A stretch of 63,623 bases of DNA, from assembly GCA_012839095.1 (NCBI GenBank), contig DUOA01000151.1, positions 1 through 63,623 of the forward strand, read 5' to 3'. The DNA comes from Clostridiales bacterium. Its GTDB lineage: Bacteria > Bacillota > Clostridia > Caldicoprobacterales > DTU083. Below are positions 1 through 54,978 of the stretch, one piece after another. Both the position numbers and the translations under genes were made by a program. How positions within the stretch are numbered: the first letter of the stretch is position 1; each line of letters starts with the position of its first letter. Below the pieces are notes generated by a model. It was not told the DNA's origin and searched no databases. It saw only the letters and a program-made list of their open reading frames with translations.

Positions 1-474
1 TGCCTCCGATATCAGTGCTGCTGCCGAAATTACCACCGATAAATCCGCCACTGACGCCCCCTCTGCTCCTGCAATGGCAGGCAGAACGGATACCTCTATA
101 ACTCTCGAAGAAATTGACGGTGCGGAATACAGCATGGATAACGGTGAAACCTGGCAGGACAGCCCAGTATTTTCAGGCCTGTCCCCAAATACATCCTACA
201 GCTTTGTGGCAAGAATCAAGGAAACTGAAGACTCCTATGCCTCCGATATCAGTGCTGCTGCCGAAATTACCACCGATAAATCCGCCACTGACGCCCCCTC
301 TGCTCCTGCAATGGCAGGCAGAACAGATACTTCTATAACTCTCGAAGAAATTGACGGTGCGGAATACAGCATGGATGACGGTGCAACCTGGCAGGACAGC
401 CCCGTATTTTCAGGCCTGTCCCCAAATACATCCTACAGCTTTGTGGCAAGAATCAAGGAAACAGAAAGCGCTTA
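1..474 (+). repeat. Tandem 237-bp coding repeats
   Basis: Two full units of 237 bp (1-237 and 238-474) follow each other, differing by eye at only about ten bases. The period is exactly 79 codons, so unit number can change without breaking the frame. After 474 the sequence diverges quickly. More units probably lie left of the window edge. Confidence 0.9.
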
Positions 475-655
475 TGCATCGGCAGTCAGTGCTGCCTCCA
501 AAATAACCACCTATGGTGCTTCGAATGGAAGCCCTGAAACCAGCGATACAATGCGTACATTTAGGATAGTGATTCTGATAGCACTTATGGCTGCATCCTT
601 CAGCGCACTTGTATTTGTTGTCCGAAAAAGAAAAACAATGAAATCGCCTGTTTAA
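2..655 (+). CDS. Repeat-rich membrane-anchored surface protein, C-terminal part
   Basis: The frame is open at the left edge, so this is the C-terminal part of a longer protein. It holds tandem repeats of about 79 residues, each with the core AEYSMDNGETW and the segment GLSPNTSYSFVARIKET. These resemble the fibronectin-III-like modules common in Firmicutes surface proteins. The last 35 residues form one hydrophobic helix (FRIVILIALMAASFSALVFVV) followed by RKRKTMKSPV, which fits a cell-surface domain array anchored by a single C-terminal membrane span with a short basic cytoplasmic tail. No LPXTG motif is seen. Ligand and function cannot be told from this fragment. Confidence 0.75.
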   Translation, partial: ASDISAAAEITTDKSATDAPSAPAMAGRTDTSITLEEIDGAEYSMDNGETWQDSPVFSGLSPNTSYSFVARIKETEDSYASDISAAAEITTDKSATDAPSAPAMAGRTDTSITLEEIDGAEYSMDDGATWQDSPVFSGLSPNTSYSFVARIKETESAYASAVSAASKITTYGASNGSPETSDTMRTFRIVILIALMAASFSALVFVVRKRKTMKSPV

Positions 656-740: not shown

Positions 741-1799
741 TCATCTCCTGCCTAATTTTTCGTAGCATTCGTTATAATAGAGAGCATTTTCAACCGGTGT
801 GTTTGACGGAATATGATTGCCTACTGCCATGAAAAAACCATTACATTGTTTACCGATGTCCATGCAGCGCTTTACCTCGTTATATATGTCCTCTCTGGAC
901 CCCTGAAGGAGTATACGGGTGTCTGCATTACCTACAAAAACGTGAGTTTTGCCGTACTTTTCCGCTATATACTTCATATCCGTTGTCGGTTCCAGCACAA
1001 AGCCGTTAACACCAAGGGCCGCAACATCGTCAATATATTCGGTATAATTCCCATCGGAGGTAAACAAAACCTTTTTCCCGCTGTCAATCAGGGGAGCTAT
1101 ACATCTTTTCAGATTTGGAAAAACAAATTTTCTGTACCACTCAGGTCTGAATATGCCTCCACTGGTCCAGCAAATATCATCATGAACCATAATAACCGGG
1201 GACTTGCATTCCGCCAATGCCTCAAAATACTGCAGAATAAAATCCCCGTACCTGTTGGTCACCTGACCGAATTTCTCGGGATCATAGCCGCATGCCTCCA
1301 GCAGCAGTTCCCAGCCGAACATCTCTATGAGGCCGGAAACACAGCTGACATAGCAGCCTGTCATATTAACCGCATCAGGGAAGTTTTCCTTATTTTCATC
1401 ATAGTGGGCATTCAATGCCTCAATGACAGCTTTTTTGTCAATCTGCCCGTATTCCTCAACCGGATCAAAGTTAAGGACCTCCCGGACGTCATTAAAATGG
1501 CTGTAAATTTCAGTTGAAAAATCAAGGCCTTCGCTGGCGTATTCAGCATGGCCCATACTTGTCTTTTTTTCGCCGAAAATGTGACTGAGCACCCATACGC
1601 TCCATACAAAATCATAATTCCATCTTTTTATGAATTCGTTTCTCGCTTTGCTTTGCAGCTCACTGTTGTCAAATGCAGTAACTTTGATGTCCGTTACTGC
1701 GCTTACCAGATCCCAATGAGTTTCAGCCGAATACTCGGTTCTTGGCACTCTGTCGGTTTGTTCAAGGTTGAGAGCAGCCCATCCATCTGTAAAAGACAT
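741..1799 (-). CDS. Uroporphyrinogen decarboxylase-like family protein
   Basis: A 352-residue protein of the URO-D-like TIM-barrel superfamily, recognised from its N-terminus (ALNLEQTDRVPRTEYSAETHW), the middle 'MVHDDICWTSGGIF' stretch and the late 'KVLFTSDGNYTEYIDDVAALGVNGF' type segment. At the position where MtaA-type methyltransferases carry the zinc ligand motif His-X-Cys this protein has SDGN, so it is probably not a zinc-dependent methyl-transfer enzyme of that class. True heme HemE is unlikely without other heme genes nearby. It is separated from the upstream sugar operon by a terminator hairpin. An AAAAGGGG ribosome-binding site precedes the ATG. Substrate unknown; such genes often sit beside glycan clusters in Clostridia. 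Confidence 0.7.
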   Translation of the reverse strand: MSFTDGWAALNLEQTDRVPRTEYSAETHWDLVSAVTDIKVTAFDNSELQSKARNEFIKRWNYDFVWSVWVLSHIFGEKKTSMGHAEYASEGLDFSTEIYSHFNDVREVLNFDPVEEYGQIDKKAVIEALNAHYDENKENFPDAVNMTGCYVSCVSGLIEMFGWELLLEACGYDPEKFGQVTNRYGDFILQYFEALAECKSPVIMVHDDICWTSGGIFRPEWYRKFVFPNLKRCIAPLIDSGKKVLFTSDGNYTEYIDDVAALGVNGFVLEPTTDMKYIAEKYGKTHVFVGNADTRILLQGSREDIYNEVKRCMDIGKQCNGFFMAVGNHIPSNTPVENALYYNECYEKLGRR

Positions 1800-1970
1800 A
1801 CAACTACCCCTTTTGCAAAGTATTTGGTTGTATAAGTAATATCCTTCATAAACCGGCTATTAGTCACACGCTTTTCTTTCATATTTCATGTAATATTAGC
1901 ATACAGCCTTTCAGTGTCAACTACAAGATATCTGGCACATAAAATCAATTCAGCAAACCAACCCAAGAGA

Positions 1971-2007
1971 AACAGCCCGGGTTTTCATTTAATAAACCCG
2001 AGCTGTT
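1971..2007 (-). terminator. Terminator of the carbohydrate operon
   Basis: A 14-bp stem (1971-1984 with 1994-2007, one G-U pair in the RNA) with a 9-base loop lies 50 bp after the GH172 stop codon. It is followed on the minus strand by TCTCTT. The rest of the 257-bp gap (1800-2056) is AT-rich leader for the next gene; a single TGTGAC half-site occurs near 1864. Confidence 0.75.
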
Positions 2008-2056
2008 TTCATCTTTTGTATGCTTTTCCTATAAAGGCAGAATTATTCACTGCTGC

Positions 2057-3160
2057 TTATGGATTTGGATGTTCAAAAACCTTTTTCAGGCTTTCACCTT
2101 TAAAGGGCAGGATATCAGGCAGGGGCAGTCTCTTTTCCACGGGCAGCAAGGCATCAAACTCTTTATGCGGTTCTGCCTGATACCAATAGGCAGTGGAAGA
2201 TATATCATCGCTTCTGTGGTTATTATGTCCATGCTCCATGGTGACCTTTATGCTTTTATTGAATATTATCGGATCAAGGATATGGTACCTGTACAGGGAA
2301 ATCTTACCGCTCCAGTTGGGTCCCCCGCCCAGTATTATGCCGTGATACGGAGTGCAGACTTCCTGCTGGGGGCACCAGGCAGTATTGAAATAATCTTCAG
2401 TTCCGGTTCCATGCAGGGAGGGAGGCCATGCTTCGCCATCGATAAAGATCATGTCGTCTCCTTCGCCATACCAGTTCCACTCACGGGTTTGCCTCAAATT
2501 GTGGACATTGTAATTGCATCCCACGTAGTGTCCGCGCCCCTCTGCCTCAAGAATTACATAATTGCCTTCACCAGTGGTGTTTTTGCCGCCAAACTCGTAT
2601 ACGGCATTATCCACATTCTTATCGTCAATGCCGTCCGTAGGGCACTGACGCCTCCACTGGGCATGAAATCTCAGCTGATCTTCGCCTATTTCCGGCAGCT
2701 CTTCATAGTCAATATAGAAATAGAATTTAATGGCATGGTCTGCTTCACTTTCTACCTCGATTCTTGCACCATCGCTGTAGGGCATGGGAAAGAAACAATT
2801 GAAGGACTTTCCATCCTCGGGGCTCATTGTAAGAAGAGCAGAAGTATAGTTTTTTGTTATTCCATGTCCCAAGCCAAAGAAATCTCCTATAGGGGCTTCA
2901 ACACTGGGATTCTCTTCCCCGTCCCAATACATGCGCAGGACAATTTTTCTGGGAAGATAGTCATCCCGCAAATGATCATGCAGCGGAGCCATGGTCATCC
3001 ATATGTGCCTGATGCATCCGGCACCCTTTATATGGCAGATATCTATCCTATCCTTTGGATTAATGGTGTAATAATCCTTATTTCCTCCGCTCCTGTCATA
3101 GCTGGACACCCTTTTGGATCTCCCCTGTCTCATCTTGCTGATGCTTGTTATATCAAACAT
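2057..3160 (-). CDS. DUF2961 / GH172 family furanosidase
   Basis: A 367-residue DUF2961 protein, the family now classed as GH172. Known members hydrolyse or rearrange alpha-D-arabinofuranosides and alpha-D-fructofuranosides. Family landmarks are GCIRHIWMT near residue 48, YWDGEENPSVEAPIGDFFG near 88-108, and GTGTEDYFN near 255, whose Glu lies in a region that holds an active-site acid in characterised members. There is no signal peptide, so it should act in the cytoplasm on imported oligosaccharides. A GGAG site lies ten bases before the ATG. It is the last gene of the operon, 31 bp after the DUF6259 gene. D-arabinan or fructan fragments are the likeliest substrates; the neighbouring GH183-type gene favours D-arabinan. 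Confidence 0.85.
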   Translation of the reverse strand: MFDITSISKMRQGRSKRVSSYDRSGGNKDYYTINPKDRIDICHIKGAGCIRHIWMTMAPLHDHLRDDYLPRKIVLRMYWDGEENPSVEAPIGDFFGLGHGITKNYTSALLTMSPEDGKSFNCFFPMPYSDGARIEVESEADHAIKFYFYIDYEELPEIGEDQLRFHAQWRRQCPTDGIDDKNVDNAVYEFGGKNTTGEGNYVILEAEGRGHYVGCNYNVHNLRQTREWNWYGEGDDMIFIDGEAWPPSLHGTGTEDYFNTAWCPQQEVCTPYHGIILGGGPNWSGKISLYRYHILDPIIFNKSIKVTMEHGHNNHRSDDISSTAYWYQAEPHKEFDALLPVEKRLPLPDILPFKGESLKKVFEHPNP

Positions 3161-3191
3161 GCCATTATTGCTCCTTTCATCCTATTGTGTA

Positions 3192-5417
3192 TTATTTGTA
3201 CGCTTCAAGCATGTATACTTTTTTTGCTTCCAGTTCGATGCTTATAATTTGTTTCTCGGCCGCATCAGCTGCGCCCATGAGCTTTTCCTCCACATTGCCC
3301 TGGCTGTCAAAGCTGCTGAGCAGCCTCAAATTGAAGTCTCCTTCCAAACCATAGGACTTCAAATCAAGTTCGAAGGTTACTTTCTCCCTGCTGTCCACGG
3401 TATTGGCTATGAAAACGGCAAGGGATTTGTTTTCTTCTCCTTCAAAGAGCCAGGTGCTGGTGATTACGGCATCAACCTCAATGGATCCCCGCTCCAGGTT
3501 GGTGTTGTGGTTGTAATGATGCCAGTTCAGGCTTACTCTGGGAGACTTTATATCAACCGGCCGCTTCATGATACCGTAAGCCAGATACTTACAGCCGCAG
3601 CCGGTTCTCAGGGCTGCAAACTGGGCTAAATAGCCGGCTCTTTCCTTATCAAACTCATAGCCTCTCGGCAGGAAATTGTAGTAATGCTCCTCAGGCCTGG
3701 TCTCGACTCCGTCAATAGCTTCCATGGGGCTGTATTCATAGTTCAGTTCATAAAGTCCGCCCCATAGATAGATTTTGGCCGCTGAGTGATAGAAGAGCTC
3801 CCCGATTTCTTTCACCAGCTTACCCCATCCGTCAAGGCGGACAGGGGCATATTCATGATAAACATAGGTAAACATGGGAATCATCTCGGCCATGCCTGAC
3901 TTCATCAGTCTGCTGAAAGGCCATGTTTCCAGTGCGGAACAGGGCTGTGCCCAGGCCCGGGCCTGATAATAATCCAATACATCGATGAATACCTCGTTCA
4001 TCATTTCAGTTCCCAGAGGAATGTATTTACCGGCCGTCTCGGACAGCGCTTCCCTTGTCCTCTCATATATATCCCTGTAGGCCAGGGTAATCTCCCTGCC
4101 CGCTCCAACAGGATGCCCGTGGGATTCTGACATGCAGGTTTTTATCAGATTATTGGCCGATATATCGTAATACATGGAGTCTACTCCGGCTTCCTTCAGA
4201 ACCTGTACATCCCTTTTTATGTGCAGATCCTTTGTATAGTCCGTATACGGACAGAGCATATTGAATTTGTAGGCATCATGGCTTTTGGGAGCCTTGGGCC
4301 ATTTTGTGAGATTCTTTCTTAGGTTCTCGCCGTCGCTCTTATTTGGATCCACAAGAAAATCAAATTCAAAGGGTGCAAAGCGATCTCCCTGGCTTTTTAT
4401 CAGATCAAGGTTTTCCCTGTTGAATCTTGTCGGCACCCAGTCATCATATCCTCCGGGCACCCCCATGCCGAAGGTCTGCACATCATTTACCCAGTCCGGA
4501 CCCAAAATGTGAAATACGGGGGACTTAATTGCATCATGGTAGGCTTTCAGCCACCTGGTCCGATCATGCTTTGCATTTATGCCGAAGGTAGTCAGGCCGG
4601 TATTCTCAAGAAGCCAGACGGCCTTATCATTTTCACTCCGGCTGTACAGGGTTCCCTTCCGGGTCCATTCCTGGCGGACAGCCCATTCCTTATATATATC
4701 GGCGGCTTCATACCAGTCATCCCCCTTAATGAATTTTACAACAAAGGGATATTCCGATTTAAGGCCTTTGCCGGCACCGATATCCTCATAGCCATACATA
4801 TGGGATAATTCCAGCTTTCCGCCCGATTTATAGAAATTCAGCCATTTCTGATAGTAATCTGGGTCATAGGCCGCTGCATACAAGCCGCCCTTTCCCGCGG
4901 CATAGTATGTAAAGAACTGCATCGAAGCCCCCGAAAAACTCTCAGGGTAGGGCATAAACCTAAGGCCTCCGCCCTCATCAAAAGACTTTAGGGGATTCCT
5001 TACCAGGAAGCCAGTGACATAAGGATGGGCCAGACAGTCGTTCTCCGATATGGAATCCATATTCCCTATTACCGGATACTCCACGGCATATACCGCCTTT
5101 TCTGAAGAGTTCTCCAGCTTTGAAGTGAACACGACCTGATCCGAATCGTTGTCAAGCCGGATAAGCCCTCTAAGCACGATGCCTTTCTCTATCTCCCATG
5201 CCAGTTCATAAGCCTGTCCATTTACGTAAGATTCGTCCCTGGCATAGGAGAAGCTGCTATAGGAACAATCCAGCTCCTCTTCCAGCTCGACCCGGAAGGG
5301 AACGGTTCCTGCCCCGTTGACATACTGGATGCCTCGTTTCCGGTCTCTTAAATAAACTATGCTTCCATCAAATTTCGAAAAACCGATGGCAGCAATTCCG
5401 TTGTCCATAATAACCAT
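3192..5417 (-). CDS. DUF6259-type putative glycoside hydrolase
   Basis: A 741-residue cytoplasmic protein without signal peptide. The first ~230 residues look like a beta-rich domain, as in clan GH-D-like enzymes. The middle has a TIM-barrel character with GPDWVND near residue 305 and GVDSMYYDISANN near 415, where the YYD Asp sits like the catalytic Asp of GH36/GH31-like barrels. A C-terminal beta domain follows. I assign it to the DUF6259 group by these landmarks; no activity is established for it that I know of. It lies 99 bp after the LacI gene and 31 bp before GH172, so it probably trims the same imported oligosaccharide. The start chosen (ATG GTT ATT ATG) follows AAGG closely; the second ATG is an alternative. 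Confidence 0.6.
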   Translation of the reverse strand: MVIMDNGIAAIGFSKFDGSIVYLRDRKRGIQYVNGAGTVPFRVELEEELDCSYSSFSYARDESYVNGQAYELAWEIEKGIVLRGLIRLDNDSDQVVFTSKLENSSEKAVYAVEYPVIGNMDSISENDCLAHPYVTGFLVRNPLKSFDEGGGLRFMPYPESFSGASMQFFTYYAAGKGGLYAAAYDPDYYQKWLNFYKSGGKLELSHMYGYEDIGAGKGLKSEYPFVVKFIKGDDWYEAADIYKEWAVRQEWTRKGTLYSRSENDKAVWLLENTGLTTFGINAKHDRTRWLKAYHDAIKSPVFHILGPDWVNDVQTFGMGVPGGYDDWVPTRFNRENLDLIKSQGDRFAPFEFDFLVDPNKSDGENLRKNLTKWPKAPKSHDAYKFNMLCPYTDYTKDLHIKRDVQVLKEAGVDSMYYDISANNLIKTCMSESHGHPVGAGREITLAYRDIYERTREALSETAGKYIPLGTEMMNEVFIDVLDYYQARAWAQPCSALETWPFSRLMKSGMAEMIPMFTYVYHEYAPVRLDGWGKLVKEIGELFYHSAAKIYLWGGLYELNYEYSPMEAIDGVETRPEEHYYNFLPRGYEFDKERAGYLAQFAALRTGCGCKYLAYGIMKRPVDIKSPRVSLNWHHYNHNTNLERGSIEVDAVITSTWLFEGEENKSLAVFIANTVDSREKVTFELDLKSYGLEGDFNLRLLSSFDSQGNVEEKLMGAADAAEKQIISIELEAKKVYMLEAYK

Positions 5418-5516
5418 TCAGCCTTCACTCCCTAGAATCTAATGGAATTCATATTTTGGCCATTCCGGATGCTTCAGTGTTCCCGAAGACAGGAGTATAA
5501 GGAACGTTTGCTGCAC

Positions 5517-6521
5517 CTATTTTCCTGGTATACTGGACTCTCTCACAACGAGCTTCGGCTCTATTCTGATGGTCTTTTTACAGGTACGCCCCTCCAGTAT
5601 CCTTTCCATGAGCAGGGAGGCGGCATTCAGGCCGATTTCCTCCTGCCTCATGTTTATGGATGTAAGCCTGATTACAGTGGAAAAGTCGGTGTTGTCCATG
5701 CCTACCACGGCAAAATCCTCGGGTATTCTGATGCCGTGGTCGTCACAGTAGCGGATAAAGCCTATTGCCATAAGGTCATTGGCAGCTACGATACCGGTGG
5801 GAACGTGGCTGCTCTTAACTATTCTTTCAGCGCATGAATAGCCGCTCTCGATCGTATAATCGCCCTCATAAACCAGTTCATCATCAGGATTCAGCCCTGA
5901 TTCCACAAGCTCATCCTTCCATCCGGAATACCGCTCAAAGGATGTCTGCTCGTCCAGGCTGCCGCCTATGAAGGCAATTTTCCTGTGGCCTTGTTCCGCC
6001 AGATGGCGTGTGGCCAGCTGCACTCCCATATAGGTGTCAACGTAAACATAATCGAAATTATCATTTCCATCCGGAGAGTCGTAACGGTTGGTCAGGACTA
6101 TGGGCATTTCGCTGGCATTTACCGCACCTATGTTTTCTTCACAAAAGTGGAAGGATACGAAAATCATGCCGTCTCCGTATTTCTCCCGGAGAACATCTAT
6201 CATTTTCAGCTCCTCTTCTATGTTGTGCTTGGTATGGCACAGCAGGGTATAGTAGCCGTACTCCTCAAGCACATCATTGGCACCCTTGATCATGCCGAAA
6301 TAGAAGGGATTGTATATATCGGGTATGCAGAACAGAATCTTATTGGTCCGTTTGCTCTTTAAGGTCTTTGCAGCGTGAGTTGGGCTGTAATTCAGCTCCT
6401 TTGCCGCCTCCAGCACCTTCCTCCTGCTTTCGCTGCTGCAGTAGCCTCTGCCGCTCAGCGCCCTGGCCACGGTTGAGGGCGACAGTCCCACTTTCTCCGC
6501 TATTTCATAAATATTGCTCAC
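5517..6521 (-). CDS. LacI family transcriptional regulator
   Basis: A 334-residue LacI/GalR-type repressor. Residues 1-55 are the helix-turn-helix and hinge (IYEIAEKVGLSPSTVARALS, then SPTHAAKTLKS). The remainder is a periplasmic-binding-protein-like sensor domain (ILFCIPDIYNPFYFGMIKGA; RKIAFIGGS; DFAVVGMDNTDFS). It starts at GTG. It is encoded inside the sugar operon, between the GH183-type and DUF6259 genes, so it most likely controls that operon in response to a sugar released by it. The symmetric sequence at 11318-11335, with CG at its centre as in LacI-family operators, is the best candidate binding site. Confidence 0.93.
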   Translation of the reverse strand: MSNIYEIAEKVGLSPSTVARALSGRGYCSSESRRKVLEAAKELNYSPTHAAKTLKSKRTNKILFCIPDIYNPFYFGMIKGANDVLEEYGYYTLLCHTKHNIEEELKMIDVLREKYGDGMIFVSFHFCEENIGAVNASEMPIVLTNRYDSPDGNDNFDYVYVDTYMGVQLATRHLAEQGHRKIAFIGGSLDEQTSFERYSGWKDELVESGLNPDDELVYEGDYTIESGYSCAERIVKSSHVPTGIVAANDLMAIGFIRYCDDHGIRIPEDFAVVGMDNTDFSTVIRLTSINMRQEEIGLNAASLLMERILEGRTCKKTIRIEPKLVVRESSIPGK

Positions 6522-6570
6522 ATTAACACACCCGATTCATCTGTTATAGTTTTTTTATACAGTTTAATGC

Positions 6571-7863
6571 CTAATCCTTCTTAACAAGCTCCATTTCCAT
6601 AACAGCAACATTATATACAGGAGTCCACAGGCTCATTAAAAATCCCACCTTGCGTCCCCCGTCGGTTACATATGCGGGATGCATAAAGGCGCCGTATAAG
6701 CCGGGAAGATCCTTTTGCTCTGCGATGGTAACCACTTTTGAATATGGACCCCAGATGTTCTTCGCTACCCTCAGGACAAGATTCTCACTGTACAGGTAGG
6801 TAACCATCCATTCACCCAGGTATTCATTAAACATGATTGACATCTCGCCTACCGGCTTAGGAAGCAGATTATGAGATGTATATATATTCTCCTCTCCCTT
6901 TTCAAATATGGGAGAATCATCATCCTTAAGCCCGATAAGATATTCATAGGCATCACGGTTTTCGAAATCCTCAAGCTTTACACGCATCATCTTTGCTGAT
7001 CCGTTCCGCCCGCCTGATATGCCGGCTATATACAGGTAGTCATCCACAACCACCGGCACCATCTGGCAGAAGCAGCTGTCACCGGGCCATTGGAGATCCT
7101 CTAAAATTGTCCAGGTTTCGCCCTCGTCGGTGCTTTTGGCAAAGCCCCCGTAATTGCATATCCACTCTCCGGCTGCACCCCAGTGCTTAACAGACATAAA
7201 GGCCATGTAGTGGGTATCCCCGACATTAAAAGCACCGGTGGGGATCTTGGTAACCTCTATGTTGTCAACCTTCCTCCCTCTCAGCAATTCCTTGGCCATT
7301 CCCGGCTTTCTCTCTATCATGCCGTCAAACATAATGCCGTCGGTATAGTCCAGATCGGTGGTGTAGGCCAGCACATTGCTGCGCCATTCATCGGACTGGG
7401 GTTCGTTCAGAAAGGTATCCCCGAAGGCTATGAAGAGTTTTTCATCCGTACCCCATATGATGCCCAGATCAGTGCCTCCGACGCCATACCGGCTCTTGGT
7501 CTGATTCATGGAATACTCTCCGGTCAGCATTTCAATCATATGAACACCGGTCACCCGGTCCAGGGCATATTTGTTATCGGGATCGGAGAGAGGCTTGTAT
7601 TCAAGGCTCTTTTTCTTATGGGCCTCAATAATCTCCACGGCTTGTTTTCTGGTGCTTTTGGCGGAGTTCGGCTCCCGGGCCAGAACATCCGGCAGGGGAG
7701 TCTCATCTGCCGGCGGTTCAGTAACACCGGCAGGTGTGCCCCCAGGCTCTCTGCCTGCTCCGTTTTCCCCGGTATCCGGAGAAAAAGCACAGGAGCCCGC
7801 TGCGACTGACAGCAAAAAGAATATTACTGCCATTGTGGCTGTTCTACGAATAAATAGCTTCAT
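6571..7863 (-). CDS. DUF4185 / GH183 family lipoprotein, putative endo-D-arabinanase
   Basis: A 430-residue secreted protein. Residues 1-26 are a signal peptide ending in VAAGSC, a plausible though not ideal lipobox (Ala at -3), followed by a Gly/Pro/Glu-rich linker to about residue 60. The rest is a DUF4185 domain, recognised from GGTDLGIIWGTDEKLFIAFG, EWRSNVLAYTTDLDYTDGI, MSVKHWGAAGEW, PVGEMSIMFNEYLGEW and GLYGAFMHPAYV. DUF4185 was reclassified as GH183 after members were shown to be endo-acting D-arabinofuranases on mycobacterial arabinan. Anchored outside the cell, it would supply oligosaccharides to the transporter encoded just upstream (52-bp gap). A GGAG site precedes the ATG. Activity is inferred from the family. 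Confidence 0.8.
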   Translation of the reverse strand: MKLFIRRTATMAVIFFLLSVAAGSCAFSPDTGENGAGREPGGTPAGVTEPPADETPLPDVLAREPNSAKSTRKQAVEIIEAHKKKSLEYKPLSDPDNKYALDRVTGVHMIEMLTGEYSMNQTKSRYGVGGTDLGIIWGTDEKLFIAFGDTFLNEPQSDEWRSNVLAYTTDLDYTDGIMFDGMIERKPGMAKELLRGRKVDNIEVTKIPTGAFNVGDTHYMAFMSVKHWGAAGEWICNYGGFAKSTDEGETWTILEDLQWPGDSCFCQMVPVVVDDYLYIAGISGGRNGSAKMMRVKLEDFENRDAYEYLIGLKDDDSPIFEKGEENIYTSHNLLPKPVGEMSIMFNEYLGEWMVTYLYSENLVLRVAKNIWGPYSKVVTIAEQKDLPGLYGAFMHPAYVTDGGRKVGFLMSLWTPVYNVAVMEMELVKKD

Positions 7864-7915
7864 TTTTCTCCTCTACTTTCGCTTTTGCCTGAACTGCCTG
7901 ACAGAAAAGGTCAGA

Positions 7916-8758
7916 TTACTTCAGTCCTGACAGATATACACCTTTTACAATATACTTCTGGAATATGACAAAGAGCAGAATCGGCGGAATTACAGCAAGA
8001 CAGGTTGCCGCCATAATGCGCCCGTATTCTGCACCGTAATCGGTCTGCATGGAGCGGATCACCGGCATAATCTGATAAAGGGTCTTGTTATTGGTAATTG
8101 TGATGGAAGGCCATAGGAAGCTGTTCCAGTATCCCAGAAATACTCCGGCACCCTGTACTACCATGGGAGTGGTGGACATGGGAATAAATATCCTCCAGAA
8201 GATTCCAAAACGTCCACACCCGTCTATCCTGGCTGCATCCTCCAGGCTGTTGGGCAGATTCAGGAAAAACTGCCTGAAGAAGAAAATGGCATATCCCCCT
8301 GCCAGACCCGGTATCAGCAGCACCCAGAAGGTATTGAGCATCTGCAGCTTATGAACCACCAAAAAGGATGTTATGAGAATGGTTATGCCCGGTACATACA
8401 TGGTAGTAATGCAATAGGACCATATCAGCTTCTTTCCGTAAATCTCCATCCGGGCAAATACATAAGCGGCCATCATATTGATCAGCAATGACAAAACTAC
8501 TGCGCTGGCAGCAACAAGAAAGGTCATAAACATGGCATCCAGCAAGGGACGCTGGGGATTTTGGATTACCACTCGGAAATTACCCATCTGCCATTCTTCC
8601 GGCAGTATGCGCAGAGGTGTTGCCAAAACCTCGGCCTTTTTCTTGAAGCTGGCAAAAATCATCCACACCAGCGGAAAGAGACAGGTCAGTGATATAAGGG
8701 TACTTATTGTATAAGCAAGGGTACGCCGTATAAGATACAGTATATTCTTATGCCTCAT
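7916..8758 (-). CDS. Carbohydrate ABC transporter permease, MalG type
   Basis: A CUT1-type permease of 281 residues from the chosen start (MRHKNILYLIRRTLAYTIST). The ATG at 8758 has GAGGTGA five bases upstream and lies ten bases past the preceding gene; a longer start would overlap that gene. Six membrane spans are expected. The EAA loop that contacts the ATPase is seen as NSLEDAARIDGCGRFGIFWR near residue 190. With the partner permease and the solute-binding lipoprotein it forms the import channel. No ATP-binding subunit is encoded in the window, which is usual for CUT1 systems that share an MsmK-type ATPase. Confidence 0.93.
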   Translation of the reverse strand: MRHKNILYLIRRTLAYTISTLISLTCLFPLVWMIFASFKKKAEVLATPLRILPEEWQMGNFRVVIQNPQRPLLDAMFMTFLVAASAVVLSLLINMMAAYVFARMEIYGKKLIWSYCITTMYVPGITILITSFLVVHKLQMLNTFWVLLIPGLAGGYAIFFFRQFFLNLPNSLEDAARIDGCGRFGIFWRIFIPMSTTPMVVQGAGVFLGYWNSFLWPSITITNNKTLYQIMPVIRSMQTDYGAEYGRIMAATCLAVIPPILLFVIFQKYIVKGVYLSGLK

Positions 8759-8768
8759 GATAGTCACC

Positions 8769-9683
8769 TCAGCCTTCGATGGATTTTTCCGATTTGATAA
8801 TGGTAAACACAAACGAGTTAATAATTGCTATAATAATCATCATCAGAAGGGCACCTGATATGGTATCCCCCATATTGCCTCCTGCATTGCGGAAGCCGTT
8901 GTATATATAGAGCATGGGCGTCAGCGTGCTTTCACGCGGTGCTCCTCCCGTCATCATCATCGGGATTTCAAACATCTGCAGCGTTCCGGTAGTCATACCA
9001 ATGCATTGCAGAACGAAAATGTTGCGCATCTGAGGTATGGTAATATATATAAGCTTGTGAAATCCGCTTGCCCCGTCAATGGAGGCAGCTTCGTAGAATT
9101 CAGTGGGAATGTTAATAAGCCCCGCAAAATTGAGAATGGTACCGCCGCCAAGACCCAGCCATATAGTCGGAACAGCAATGGAAAATATGGCCCAGAACCT
9201 ATTTGTTTTGAAGGCTATGCGCTCCAAACCCATGGCTACCACCAACTGATTGATTAGTCCGCCCTTAAATTCAAAGATAAACATAAATATAATACCTGCA
9301 ATAATTCCGGCTATAGTCCCTGGTATATAAATGAGCATCTTGACCATATTGGTGAACTTGGTATTAAGGTCTCTCAGCGTATGAGCAAAGGAAAACTGAA
9401 TAATGATCTGTGTGGGAACCAGAATCAGCACAAACTTGAACGCATTTACAACTGCACGCTGAAACGACTTATTTCGAAGTATCCGGCGAAAATTCTGTAT
9501 GCCCACCCATACGTCATCCTTATAAAAATTCCATTCATAGAAGCTTTTCTGGACCGCCATTATAAACGGTATTATGACAAATATGGTTATAAGCACTACC
9601 GCAGGTAAAAGCATAAGGTAGCCCACTATCATCTCCTTGCGCTGGACGGAGGTATACTTGTAATTCTCTGTCTTTTTTGCCAT
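8769..9683 (-). CDS. Carbohydrate ABC transporter permease, MalF type
   Basis: A CUT1 permease of 304 residues from ATG 9683 (MAKKTENYKYTSVQRKEM), chosen because GGTGG lies five bases upstream; an in-frame GTG at 9692 overlaps that site. It has a typical N-terminal span (IVGYLMLLPAVVLITIFVI), the LxQSFYEW-like first loop, and an EAA-type loop (EFYEAASIDGASGFHKLIY) near residue 205. It lies 96 bp after the solute-binding protein gene and pairs with the next permease. The cargo is inferred from operon partners to be oligosaccharides of a furanoside polymer. Confidence 0.93.
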   Translation of the reverse strand: MAKKTENYKYTSVQRKEMIVGYLMLLPAVVLITIFVIIPFIMAVQKSFYEWNFYKDDVWVGIQNFRRILRNKSFQRAVVNAFKFVLILVPTQIIIQFSFAHTLRDLNTKFTNMVKMLIYIPGTIAGIIAGIIFMFIFEFKGGLINQLVVAMGLERIAFKTNRFWAIFSIAVPTIWLGLGGGTILNFAGLINIPTEFYEAASIDGASGFHKLIYITIPQMRNIFVLQCIGMTTGTLQMFEIPMMMTGGAPRESTLTPMLYIYNGFRNAGGNMGDTISGALLMMIIIAIINSFVFTIIKSEKSIEG

Positions 9684-9779
9684 AAAGACCACCCTTTGAA
9701 AAATTTAATCAAATAATATCAGCTCTTAGCCCTTGGTTAAAGTAAGGGGGGCTCCAAAAAGCCCCCCGGTATAAGGTTA

Positions 9780-11216
9780 TTACTTACGAGGATTGGTTCC
9801 CGGCAGTTCAAAGTCTTCAATTGCCTGAGCAATTTCCTCGCGAGCCATCTCCATAGCTTTGTCTATTGTCTCATAGCCCATGGCTACATTCTCAACCATT
9901 CGGTCAATTGCCATGGAAACCTCCCAAGGATATGCAGCTTCAGGCTGACCGTAAGAGGCAATCCTGTTTATAACGGCAACATAATCTGTATCATCGGGAG
10001 CCTGGCTTTCAACCCACTGAGCCACATTGGTAAAGGTAGCGGCTTTTGAGAATTGCTCTCCAATATAGTATTCACCCAGGCGTTCGGGATGTGCTTCATC
10101 CAGCAGCCATGTGAAGTAGTCGGCAACGCCCTCGGTGTTCTGTGCCTTGGCATCAAGCACATAAACCCATCCGCCTATGGTAGCGGTAGTTTTATCCTGG
10201 TTTCCGTCGTTTGTGGGCATAACTGCCATTCCTACATTGGGCCACATATCCGGATAATCATTAATCAGGAAGGCGGCACCCCAGGAACCGCAAATCTGGA
10301 ACACGTAATCTCCCTGGCCCATGGGTTTGATGTCAACATAGGCACTGAGAGGCTGTTCCGGAACAGCTCCGCTCTCGTACAGCTTCTTCCAGAATTCAAG
10401 GAATTCGCGGTAACCGTCGTCAATCCAGGGCTCATCCCAGTCATCAGTCAGAGGACCATGCCCTACATTACCATACTGCATTCCCCATGTGGACCATCCA
10501 ATTTCGCCGCCCCAGTAAGGAACGCCTATTCCGTACATTTCATCTGTTTTTAGCTCAACTGCCATTTCAATAAGCTCATCCCAGGTCTTCGGCGGCTCGG
10601 TATAACCTGCAGCTTCCAGTATGTCCTTGCGGTAGAAGAGCACCTGAGAAGGTTCTGCCAGTATCGGAATGGCATAGGTTTTTCCGTCAAAGGTAACCAT
10701 TTCACGGATTTTCTCTACCATGCGGTCCAATACTTCAGCCGGGAGATGATCGTCTACAGGTACATAGTATCCGTTTCTAATACCTGCAGGAATATGGTTG
10801 TAGGACTGAATATAAGCATCCGGTGCAGTCTGCGATGCCCTTGCGGCATTCATGCGTTCATCCCAGGCTGCTCCTGCCACGAACTCTTCCACGACGGTAT
10901 AGCCTCTGCCTTCCAGATTGTACTGGTGTACCTGCTCTGAGAAGTGGTTAACCCATACTTCGCCGAAATTCTGGCTCCACAGCATAATGGTTTCGCCTTC
11001 CGGATATTCATATCCGTAGTACTTGCTCTGTGTTACGTCTGATTCCTCGTCGGTTCCTTCATCGCCATTCTCGTCATCGGGCGTTTCGTCACCGTTCTGG
11101 GTTACGTCTCCATTATCCTTGCCCGGATCTTCGGTATTTGGAGTACATCCGCTTACAAAAATCCCCAGGATTAATGCGAGCGCAAGCAACAAAGCCAGGA
11201 CTTTAACCTTTTTCAT
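9780..11216 (-). CDS. Extracellular solute-binding lipoprotein of the sugar ABC transporter
   Basis: A 478-residue family 1 solute-binding protein. Residues 1-24 are a lipoprotein signal peptide with lipobox VSGC. A 40-residue Asp/Glu/Gly/Asn linker keeps the domain away from the membrane. The binding domain follows (TIMLWSQNFGEVWVNHF; AIPILAEPSQVLFYRKDILE; ATIGGWVYVLDAKAQNTE), with many Trp and Tyr residues as in oligosaccharide binders. It is the first gene of the operon and has a consensus promoter far upstream and a strong GGAGG site. It should capture oligosaccharides released outside the cell and pass them to the two permeases. Confidence 0.93.
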   Translation of the reverse strand: MKKVKVLALLLALALILGIFVSGCTPNTEDPGKDNGDVTQNGDETPDDENGDEGTDEESDVTQSKYYGYEYPEGETIMLWSQNFGEVWVNHFSEQVHQYNLEGRGYTVVEEFVAGAAWDERMNAARASQTAPDAYIQSYNHIPAGIRNGYYVPVDDHLPAEVLDRMVEKIREMVTFDGKTYAIPILAEPSQVLFYRKDILEAAGYTEPPKTWDELIEMAVELKTDEMYGIGVPYWGGEIGWSTWGMQYGNVGHGPLTDDWDEPWIDDGYREFLEFWKKLYESGAVPEQPLSAYVDIKPMGQGDYVFQICGSWGAAFLINDYPDMWPNVGMAVMPTNDGNQDKTTATIGGWVYVLDAKAQNTEGVADYFTWLLDEAHPERLGEYYIGEQFSKAATFTNVAQWVESQAPDDTDYVAVINRIASYGQPEAAYPWEVSMAIDRMVENVAMGYETIDKAMEMAREEIAQAIEDFELPGTNPRK

Positions 11217-11315: not shown

Positions 11316-11346
11316 ATTGTGACACCGATGTCACATTGGTCACAAT
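11316..11346. promoter_or_regulatory. Candidate operator with three TGTGAC half-sites
   Basis: TGTGACA (11318-11324), CCGA, TGTCACA (11329-11335) is a perfect inverted repeat with CG at its centre. A third half, GGTCACAA, follows at 11338-11345, so the whole region also reads as ATTGTGAC, 15 bases, GTCACAAT. It lies in the leader of the sugar operon, about 100 bp before the first start codon. It is a plausible site for the operon's LacI-type repressor. The CRP consensus would need six bases between TGTGA and TCACA; here there are eight. Confidence 0.55.
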
Positions 11347-46685: not shown

Positions 46686-47753
46686 TTACCTGTCATATCT
46701 GCCGTAGGTTTTTGCTTCATCAATGATTATCTCCGCTGCACGCCAGTCGGCATTGGCAGGATATTCGCAGCCGGTGGCCAGGATAAATCCGCCGTCCTTC
46801 TTATATACATCAATCTGAGCCCGGCATTCCCTGCGAATCTCTTCCTCCGGGGCATTGATGACCCAGGTGGGATCCACATGGCCTATTAAGGTTGTAATGC
46901 TGCCGTACTTCTCCTTCAGCTCCTCCCTGGTTCTGCAGTCGTCCGGCAGGTGCAGGAAGGATATGGCTTCCGGCTTCATGGCTTCAATCTGGACATCAAA
47001 ATAAATGCCGTTGCCGCAGTTATGAATCATCACCATGCAGCCCTGATCATGAATATGCTGTGCCAGCTCCTTAACATAGACCCCTTCAAATTCCTTCCAC
47101 ATTCCCTTGCTCATTATGGACTGGCTGCTGAACAGGGTGTCAATCATAATGGCATTTACCCCGGTGGATATCAGGGCATTCACGTAATCCTTCAGGGTTT
47201 CGTTTATAGCCTTCACGGCTCTCTTTACAGCGTCCGGATCATCCAGTATATCCATAAAAATATTGGCCTGGCCCCGCAGCATGCTGAGGATGCCCAGCGG
47301 CCCAAAGACAAAGGCCACAACCGGATATTCCTTTCCTTTTGCCTTAACCAGTTTGTCACAGAGCTTAACATGCTCCATCATCCTGGCACCCTTTTTGATA
47401 TCAAGAGGTTCAACCTTTGCATAATCCTCCACTGATTGAAGCAGGTATTGGCTGAAGTCCGGGTGAGCGGCTTCATTCTCCGGGAAGACAAGCTTCTGTC
47501 CAAAATCTCCTGCTTCCACCGACAAATCCGTCAGAGTCACTATGACATCCAGGCCAAACCTTTCAGTAACCCTGCAGTATGCCTCTGCAGTAACATCGGC
47601 ATTAAGGGCCCATTCCTTATAACTTGCATTAACCAGTTTTCTTGATATCCCGTTAAGCAGGGGATAAACCGGTATTCGATCTGCTTCCTTGTGCTGCAGT
47701 GTCAGTGCTACTCTTTCCAATGCTGTCAATTCTTCGGATCGTCTTGTACTCAT
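46686..47753 (-). CDS. MtaA/CmuA-type uroporphyrinogen decarboxylase-family methyltransferase
   Basis: A 355-residue protein from ATG 47753 (MSTRRSEELTALERVALTLQ), with GGAGGG upstream; a longer start lacks a site. It has the URO-D fold and the zinc ligand motif MVMIHNCGNGIYFDVQIEAM (His-X-Cys), characteristic of methylcobamide:CoM methyltransferase-like proteins. GHVDPTWVINAPEEEIRREC and GGFILATGCEYPANADWRAA complete the match. In non-methanogens such proteins move methyl groups from corrinoid proteins. No corrinoid protein gene is nearby. Confidence 0.85.
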   Translation of the reverse strand: MSTRRSEELTALERVALTLQHKEADRIPVYPLLNGISRKLVNASYKEWALNADVTAEAYCRVTERFGLDVIVTLTDLSVEAGDFGQKLVFPENEAAHPDFSQYLLQSVEDYAKVEPLDIKKGARMMEHVKLCDKLVKAKGKEYPVVAFVFGPLGILSMLRGQANIFMDILDDPDAVKRAVKAINETLKDYVNALISTGVNAIMIDTLFSSQSIMSKGMWKEFEGVYVKELAQHIHDQGCMVMIHNCGNGIYFDVQIEAMKPEAISFLHLPDDCRTREELKEKYGSITTLIGHVDPTWVINAPEEEIRRECRAQIDVYKKDGGFILATGCEYPANADWRAAEIIIDEAKTYGRYDR

Positions 47754-48105
47754 ATTTTCCCTCCATTTTAGCTCTATTGCTGCAGTCATCACTGACTCTG
47801 TTATATTATAAGAAAACATAGGGAAATGAAACAAGACTTTTCAGGCAGGGAGACAAGATAATACCTCACAACCACAAATAACTCCTATTTTTGCATGTAT
47901 TTTTATTAATACCGGCGGTTTTGCAGGAATAAGGGTGCTAATAATAGAAATATATCCAACAAATGTAATAATATGGGCGCAAAGCAGGCATTGCTCCCTC
48001 CCTGATATTTACAAATGTGCGTTAAAATTATAACAATTAATCCTGTATCAGCACTATATTGATTAAAAGTGTAAAATCTTGCATCGCCGGATTGCAGGCA
48101 GGCAA

Positions 48106-53784: not shown

Positions 53785-54978
53785 ATGGTAAGGATGGTAG
53801 GAACCGTTGTAAGGGGAATTCGTACTCCAATTATCAACAAAGGGGATAACCTGGAGCAGATTGTGCCTGATTGTATATTGAAGGCCGCTCAGTCAGAGGG
53901 CTTTACCATACAGGACAGGGATATCATTGCTGTTACTGAGTCTGTTGTAGGCCGTGCTCAAGGCAATTATGCATCTGTTGATGCCATTGCAGAGGACATT
54001 AGTGAAAAGTTTGGCGGAGATACCATTGGCCTGGTATTCCCCATACTCAGCCGCAACCGGTTTGGAATCTGCCTGCGGGGCATTGCAAGGGGAGCATCCA
54101 AAAAAATTGTGCTTATGCTCAGCTACCCCTCAGATGAGGTAGGAAACCACCTGGTCAACCTGGATCAATTGGACGAAAAGGGTGTCAATCCCTGGTCCCA
54201 TGTGTTCACCGAAAAACAATTCAGGGAAATGTTCGGCAGCACCAGGCACACCTTCACCGGCGTTGATTACGTTGAGTATTACCGTTCCCTTGTGGAAGAG
54301 GAAGGCAGGGAATGTGAAATAGTTTTCTCCAATAATCCCCTGACCATACTGCAGTATACAAAGAGCGTTCTTACCTGCGATATCCATACAAGAGCCAGAA
54401 CCCGGCGCATCCTGACAGCCAATGGAGTCGAAAAGGTATACGGACTGGAAGATATTCTGACCCGGCCTATCGGCAGCAACGGATATAATGAGGAATACGG
54501 GCTGTTAGGCGCCAATAAGGCAACAGAGGATGAAGTTAAGCTTTTCCCCAGGGACAGTCAACTGCTGGTTGAAAGAATACAGGCTGTCATGAAGGAGAAA
54601 ACCGGAAAAAACGTAGAGGTAATGGTATACGGAGACGGCGCCTTCAGGGATCCCGTGGGCAAAATTTGGGAGTTGGCGGATCCGGTGGTCTCTCCCGGCT
54701 ATACAAAAGGTTTGGAAGGCACCCCCAGTGAGCTGAAGCTTAAATATCTGGCAGATAACTTCTTTTCCCATTTGAAGGGGGAAGAGCAGAGAAAAGCCAT
54801 TGCCGAATATATAAAAAACAAGCAATCCGATTTGGTGGGAGATATGCTGTCCCAGGGTACCACCCCCAGACGGCTGACTGATTTAATCGGCTCCCTCTGT
54901 GATCTTACCTCGGGCAGCGGCGATAAGGGTACACCTGTGGTATATGTGCAGGGCTACTTCGACGATTTTACCAAATAA
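53785..54978 (+). CDS. CofE-like (F420-0:gamma-glutamyl ligase family) protein
   Basis: A 397-residue protein whose N-terminal half matches the CofE fold: [40 protein letters not shown], and the later [16 protein letters not shown] and [20 protein letters not shown], rich in Asp as expected for metal and nucleotide binding. CofE adds glutamate to coenzyme F420-0. Clostridia generally do not make F420 and no other cof gene is in the window. This longer homologue may therefore be a gamma-glutamyl ligase for another compound. It lies 139 bp after thiT, outside any obvious shared operon. AAAGGAGAGG precedes the ATG. Confidence 0.75.

Follow-up and report, generated by a model that had tools for sequence, protein, structure and literature searches.

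D-Arabinan, an unusual sugar polymer known above all from mycobacterial walls, is an essential wall component in mycobacteria and related bacteria. Genes for endo- and exo-D-arabinanases were identified only in 2023, in Actinobacteria, Bacteroidetes, Myxococcus, phage and a predator. The D-arabinan locus of Microbacterium arabinogalactanolyticum encodes the GH183 enzymes EndoMA1/2, the GH172 enzyme ExoMA1, the GH116 enzyme ExoMA2 and an ABC importer, an arrangement called seemingly typical for Gram-positive bacteria by its authors (PMC10509167). PUL42 of Dysgonomonas gadei combines GH183 (DgGH4185a/b) with GH172 (DgGH172a-c), and Ca. Mycosynbacter amalyticus has a lipoprotein GH183 and a cytoplasmic GH172 (PMC10115798). 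The alphaFFase1 locus of Bifidobacterium dentium, comprising GH172, an ABC importer and GH32, acts on alpha-D-fructofuranosides (PMC8605356). The term 'Firmicutes' is absent from the main text of both PMC10509167 and PMC10115798, and no open-licence paper was found that links DUF4185 (GH183) with Clostridia and arabinofuranosides; a clostridial D-arabinan system has apparently not been described before.

The seven-gene operon analyzed here lies in a 63,623-nucleotide stretch of DNA from a spore-forming clostridial anaerobe (the window; its genome is denoted G000, and C numbers refer to contigs of this genome), and very probably encodes D-arabinan utilisation of the Gram-positive type, with cutting outside the cell, import and cytoplasmic digestion. 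New are the clostridial setting and the presence of a DUF6259 protein; the strategy itself is known, and no new principle is involved. As in Microbacterium, a secreted GH183, an SBP_bac_8-type ABC importer and a cytoplasmic GH172 occur together, and an ExoMA2-like GH116 is present in the genome. The original prediction that the arrangement differs from actinobacterial settings was thus mostly wrong, given that the Microbacterium locus has the same three components as well as a cytoplasmic GH116. The window locus does differ from it in belonging to the class Clostridia, in encoding one GH183 instead of four, in containing DUF6259, and in having a GH172 of the DgGH172c/BACUNI type, not the ExoMA1 type. 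Moreover, the ExoMA2-type GH116 and the D-arabinose catabolic genes are unlinked: no GH116, isomerase or kinase gene was found within the operon itself. The operon shares GH183 and GH172 with PUL42, its GH172 being close to DgGH172c, but it has an ABC importer and a cytoplasmic GH172 instead of Bacteroidetes-type uptake, and no linked fucose isomerase. Its division into a lipoprotein GH183 and a cytoplasmic GH172 resembles that of Ca. Mycosynbacter amalyticus. A cytoplasmic GH172 adjoining an ABC importer is also found in the alphaFFase1 locus, which is distinguished from the window by its substrate, by Gly299 in its GH172, by a linked GH32 and by the lack of GH183.

All seven open reading frames of the predicted single minus-strand operon were found at the expected boundaries, with neighboring frames separated by -44 to 99 bp. 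The first gene encodes the solute-binding lipoprotein of a CUT1 importer (9780-11216; 478 aa, lipobox VSGC) and is followed by an intercistronic hairpin, GGGGGGCTTTTTGGAGCCCCCC (9746-9767), and by the two permease genes (8769-9692 and 7916-8812), which overlap by 44 bp. Next come the genes for the GH183 protein (6571-7863), a LacI-family regulator (5517-6521; LacI/Peripla_BP in Pfam), the DUF6259 protein (3192-5417) and the GH172 protein (2057-3160). A terminator-like hairpin 3' of the GH172 gene (1970-2008, minus strand), with a folding energy of -26.8 kcal/mol compared to -10.1 ± 2.35 kcal/mol for shuffled sequences (z -7.1), closes the operon. The possibility that the URO-D/MtaA-like gene beyond it (741-1799, minus strand) forms an eighth member was rejected, since this hairpin and a separate promoter-like site intervene and the gene is absent from the related locus in genome G338. 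Its product resembles MtaA/CmuA methyltransferases (67 bits, below the cut-off) and is one of two URO-D superfamily proteins encoded in the window, the other at 46686-47834 (minus strand); proteins of similar appearance also adjoin sugar genes elsewhere in G000 (L012, L032) and in G338 (L033).

The genes recR and dnaX are located a few kb upstream of the operon on the same contig, and the GC content of the operon (0.476) matches that of its surroundings (0.470), so that the operon is no obvious foreign fragment or binning artefact. The label 'clostridium' fits at class level, the closest named relative being a Clostridiales metagenome-assembled genome (MAG), and gerA-type spore germination genes are present in the window. 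The window additionally encodes an F420-0:gamma-glutamyl ligase family protein (53785-54978, plus strand; PF01996, 194 bits), here in a clostridial genome, and the C-terminal end of a surface-type protein built from tandem repeats, each about 80 residues long and nearly identical to the others, with a terminal membrane anchor (2-655, plus strand).

The importer assignment is supported by an SBP_bac_8 match of the solute-binding protein (88 bits, cut-off 27) and a BPD_transp_1 match of the 7916-8812 permease (65 bits, cut-off 26.4). The permease encoded at 8769-9692 scores just below the same cut-off (22.5) and matches GlcT/UgpA permease models (E about 1e-22). With an unlinked UgpC/MsmX-type ATPase (G000:C113; 496 bits, cut-off 432), the CUT1 set is complete, and this ATPase would presumably pair with the operon importer.

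The identification of the DUF4185 protein as GH183 was borne out by profile, structure and active-site comparisons. The PF13810 match (277 bits, gathering cut-off 39.5) covers model positions 2-308 of 309, and the best PDB matches are structures of the endo-D-arabinanase EndoMA1 (8hhv, E=5e-50). The EndoMA1 residues D33, D51 and E243, which supply the nucleophile, the acid/base and a further essential carboxylate (PMC10509167), correspond to D132, D149 and E340, all conserved. Of five other ligand contacts, W138, R198, L292 and Y293 are kept, and P141 is replaced by Ala. By inspection, the signal sequence ends in Cys, indicating a secreted and probably lipid-anchored protein, and the GH172 and DUF6259 proteins carry no signal sequence; this fits the GH183/GH172 part of the predicted order of outside cutting, import and cytoplasmic finishing. 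The protein is a candidate endo-D-arabinofuranase, although it shares only about 40% identity with its nearest relatives found apart from the sister locus.

For the GH172 protein, the family assignment of DUF2961 likewise survived each of these comparisons (PF11175, 292 bits, cut-off 27). The PDB matches are 4kq7 (E=3e-90), DgGH172c (8ah3, E=6e-83) and alphaFFase1 (7v1v, E=4e-78); both catalytic glutamates are kept, E233/E255 aligning with E270/E291, and Asp256 is also conserved. The presence of alphaFFase1 among the best matches, together with the abundance of alphaFFase1 homologues in gut Clostridia (PMC8605356), would be compatible with an operon for alpha-D-fructofuranosides such as difructose anhydride or a caramel sugar, in which the GH172 acts like alphaFFase1. 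The residue that separates the two sugars makes this reading highly improbable: alphaFFase1 can accept fructose owing to Gly299, fructose is blocked by Asn253 in ExoMA1 (PMC10509167), and Cys263 of the window protein occupies the Gly299 position. In the PDB match alignments, BACUNI_00161 and DgGH172c also have Cys there, and Cys304 of BACUNI_00161, presumably this same residue, was reported to clash with fructose (PMC8605356). Among the GH172 genes compared, the GH183-linked copies in the five clusters described below carry Cys or Asn at this position, never Gly, which was seen in just one, unlinked, copy. Furthermore, GH183 is no fructan family and the operon lacks GH32. The window GH172 is thus a candidate exo-alpha-D-arabinofuranosidase.

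The remaining enzyme gene encodes a DUF6259 protein (PF19773, 91 bits, cut-off 28.7), a family found in 62 of the 391 class genomes in varied neighborhoods and for which no open-licence paper was found. A search with the single DUF6259 sequence gave no match; similarity to GH129 structures appears only with a family profile of 18 members (5opq/8rzg, E=1e-12; 5wzn, E=1.5e-5). GH129 includes the alpha-N-acetylgalactosaminidase NagBb and the 3,6-anhydro-D-galactosidase ZgGH129. D418 and E471 are invariant in all 18 members and align with D435/E478 of NagBb, which we take to be its catalytic pair. DUF6259 thus appears to be a distant relative of GH129, set in a different operon context, and is probably a retaining alpha-glycosidase. 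An AlphaFold model computed from two sequences had a mean pLDDT of 35 and was discarded. The simplest guess is that the protein removes a cap or branch here. More specifically, but tentatively, DUF6259 may be a new GH129-like family that trims imported D-arabino-oligosaccharides by taking off alpha-linked caps or side sugars such as galactosamine, mannose or glucose; if so, it would let anaerobic clostridia consume decorated actinobacterial wall arabinan. Among the neighborhoods listed, neither GH172 nor GH183 was seen near DUF6259 genes outside the two sister operons, so DUF6259 in general is not bound to D-arabinan.

The distribution of the gene set was analyzed in 391 class genomes and a 398-genome phylum sample, which partly overlap (about 790 genomes). 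GH172 is present in 63 class genomes (16%), and full-length GH183 in only three, with two more strong examples in the phylum sample. Each of the five distinct loci with a strong, full-length GH183 match adjoins GH172, two sugar permeases, a solute-binding protein and LacI. The count leaves out a partial, below-cut-off match in G000 itself (C125, 33.8 bits), partial matches in G037, G065 and G298, and a more distant GH183 in G565 (146 bits), which is located close to the end of a contig and is not accompanied by the other genes. Two of the partial matches, in G065 (L081:1037-2737) and G037 (L007), are proteins of about 570-590 aa with borderline DUF4185 similarity that possibly form a distant GH183-like group; the G065 gene is flanked by two sugar permease genes.

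The proposed search of genomes for the same gene set recovered the identical seven-gene order in G338 (DUSN01000091.1, Clostridiales MAG AS04akNAM_22), a member of a different genus of the same family, with 83-92% identity (solute-binding protein 84%, permease 1 92%, permease 2 89%) and different flanks. In G221, from another family, the orthologous solute-binding protein, permease 1 and permease 2 are 42%, 52% and 54% identical and the GH183 40%. The G221 cluster adds two GH172 genes, GH3, GH116, a ribokinase and a protein of the KpsF/KdsD arabinose-5-phosphate isomerase type, its GH116 being ExoMA2-like (8ic6, E=1e-159, versus 1e-22 for the best beta-glucosidase-type match). This fuller D-arabinan-type cluster (L010:4390-19415), in a clostridial genome consisting of a single 1.8 Mb contig, is arguably a better model than the window locus. 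G697 and G689, which share the phylum of the window but not its class, combine GH183, LacI, a solute-binding protein and permeases with a GH172 that is 67-68% identical to that of the window, and in G697 the 68%-identical GH172 gene lies beside a FucI-family isomerase gene. Both kinds of D-arabinose catabolic genes found in related clusters point to D-arabinose, not fructose, as the product, arguing further against a fructofuranoside operon. The recurrence of the set also bears on whether the secreted GH183 serves to open or remodel actinobacterial walls, in antagonism or predation, instead of feeding. GH183 is known from actinophage lysis cassettes and from an epibiotic predator (PMC10115798), but wall attack is a very unlikely purpose for an operon that joins an importer, a cytoplasmic exo-enzyme and a sugar-type repressor, in a set found in five lineages.

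The likely operon promoter and best promoter-like site of the region, TTGACA-17-TATACT (11484-11456, minus strand), matches 11 of 12 consensus positions upstream of the solute-binding protein gene, and identical hexamers occupy the corresponding position in G338. The 5' leader contains, some 120 bp downstream of this site, a LacI-type operator candidate, the palindrome TGTGACATCGGTGTCACA (11318-11335, minus strand), which is kept as TGTGACATCGATGTCATA within the otherwise diverged leader of G338; in G221, TATGGGATCGATTCCATA lies ahead of the LacI gene. The LacI orthologues of these two genomes are 86% and 44% identical, respectively, to the window protein. With up to two mismatches, the operator motif was found at one place in G000 and one in G338, with no copies elsewhere in either genome and none of the reversed control pattern; 0.07 occurrences were expected in the window. 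The operator position downstream of the promoter suggests that LacI may repress by blocking elongation.

Further steps of the pathway are encoded elsewhere in G000. An orphan GH116 (C41), with a relative in G338 (L040), aligns with ExoMA2 along almost all of its length (731 bits, against 87 for the next match) and keeps the equivalents of E431, D557, H446 and R483 in the alignment (PDB chain numbering is offset by 4), that is, of the ExoMA2 nucleophile and acid/base and of the specificity residues H446 and R483 (PMC10509167). As no second operator copy was found in G000 or G338, the unlinked GH116 is not visibly part of the operon's regulon. A FucI protein scoring over the cut-off is encoded on C40 beside GHL6/fucosidase-like genes and may primarily serve fucose. 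Several further GH172 and GH116 genes are present in G000, indicating that both families also serve other substrates there. One such GH116-GH172 pair (L037:6372-9951 on C33), in which the GH172 is of the Asn type and the GH116 is less closely related to the G221/ExoMA2-like one, possibly represents another furanoside system.

The genes, families, catalytic residues, gene set and operator-like site are present and conserved; for the activities, substrates, role of DUF6259 and regulatory logic of the operon we infer the following scheme. The surface GH183 would cleave alpha-D-arabinofuranan chains outside the cell, and the solute-binding protein and two permeases would import the oligosaccharides, powered by the ATPase encoded elsewhere. 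In the cytoplasm, GH172 would take off terminal alpha-D-Araf and the unlinked GH116 beta-D-Araf ends, with DUF6259 probably removing an alpha-linked cap or side sugar. The released D-arabinose would enter metabolism, most simply via the genome's L-fucose/D-arabinose isomerase, and LacI would repress from the leader operator until bound by an imported product.

In a variant of this scheme, the alpha-D-Araf would come not from a mycobacterial-type wall but from short linear D-Araf chains on glycosylated pilins or in LPS O-antigens. D-Araf oligosaccharides from the pilins of P. aeruginosa PA7 can serve as substrates of GH183 and GH172 enzymes (PMC10115798), D-Araf is found in some LPS (PMC10115798; PMC8605356), and no gene of the operon addresses a galactofuranan backbone. 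An endo-type GH183 and an ExoMA2-type exo-beta GH116 in the genome better fit the long, beta-capped arabinan of arabinogalactan and lipoarabinomannan, leaving the variant conceivable but rather unlikely. Relatives from the series of the sister MAG come from biogas reactors (PMC7355431, PMC10215811), which does not settle the source polymer; mycolata walls, LPS and pilin glycans are all candidates.

The occurrence of complete systems in Clostridia and related lineages would mean that D-arabinan is recycled by anaerobic Gram-positive bacteria too. Such systems would yield new enzymes for the analysis of arabinogalactan and lipoarabinomannan, and the uncharacterized DUF6259 family would gain a concrete pathway in which its function can be tested.
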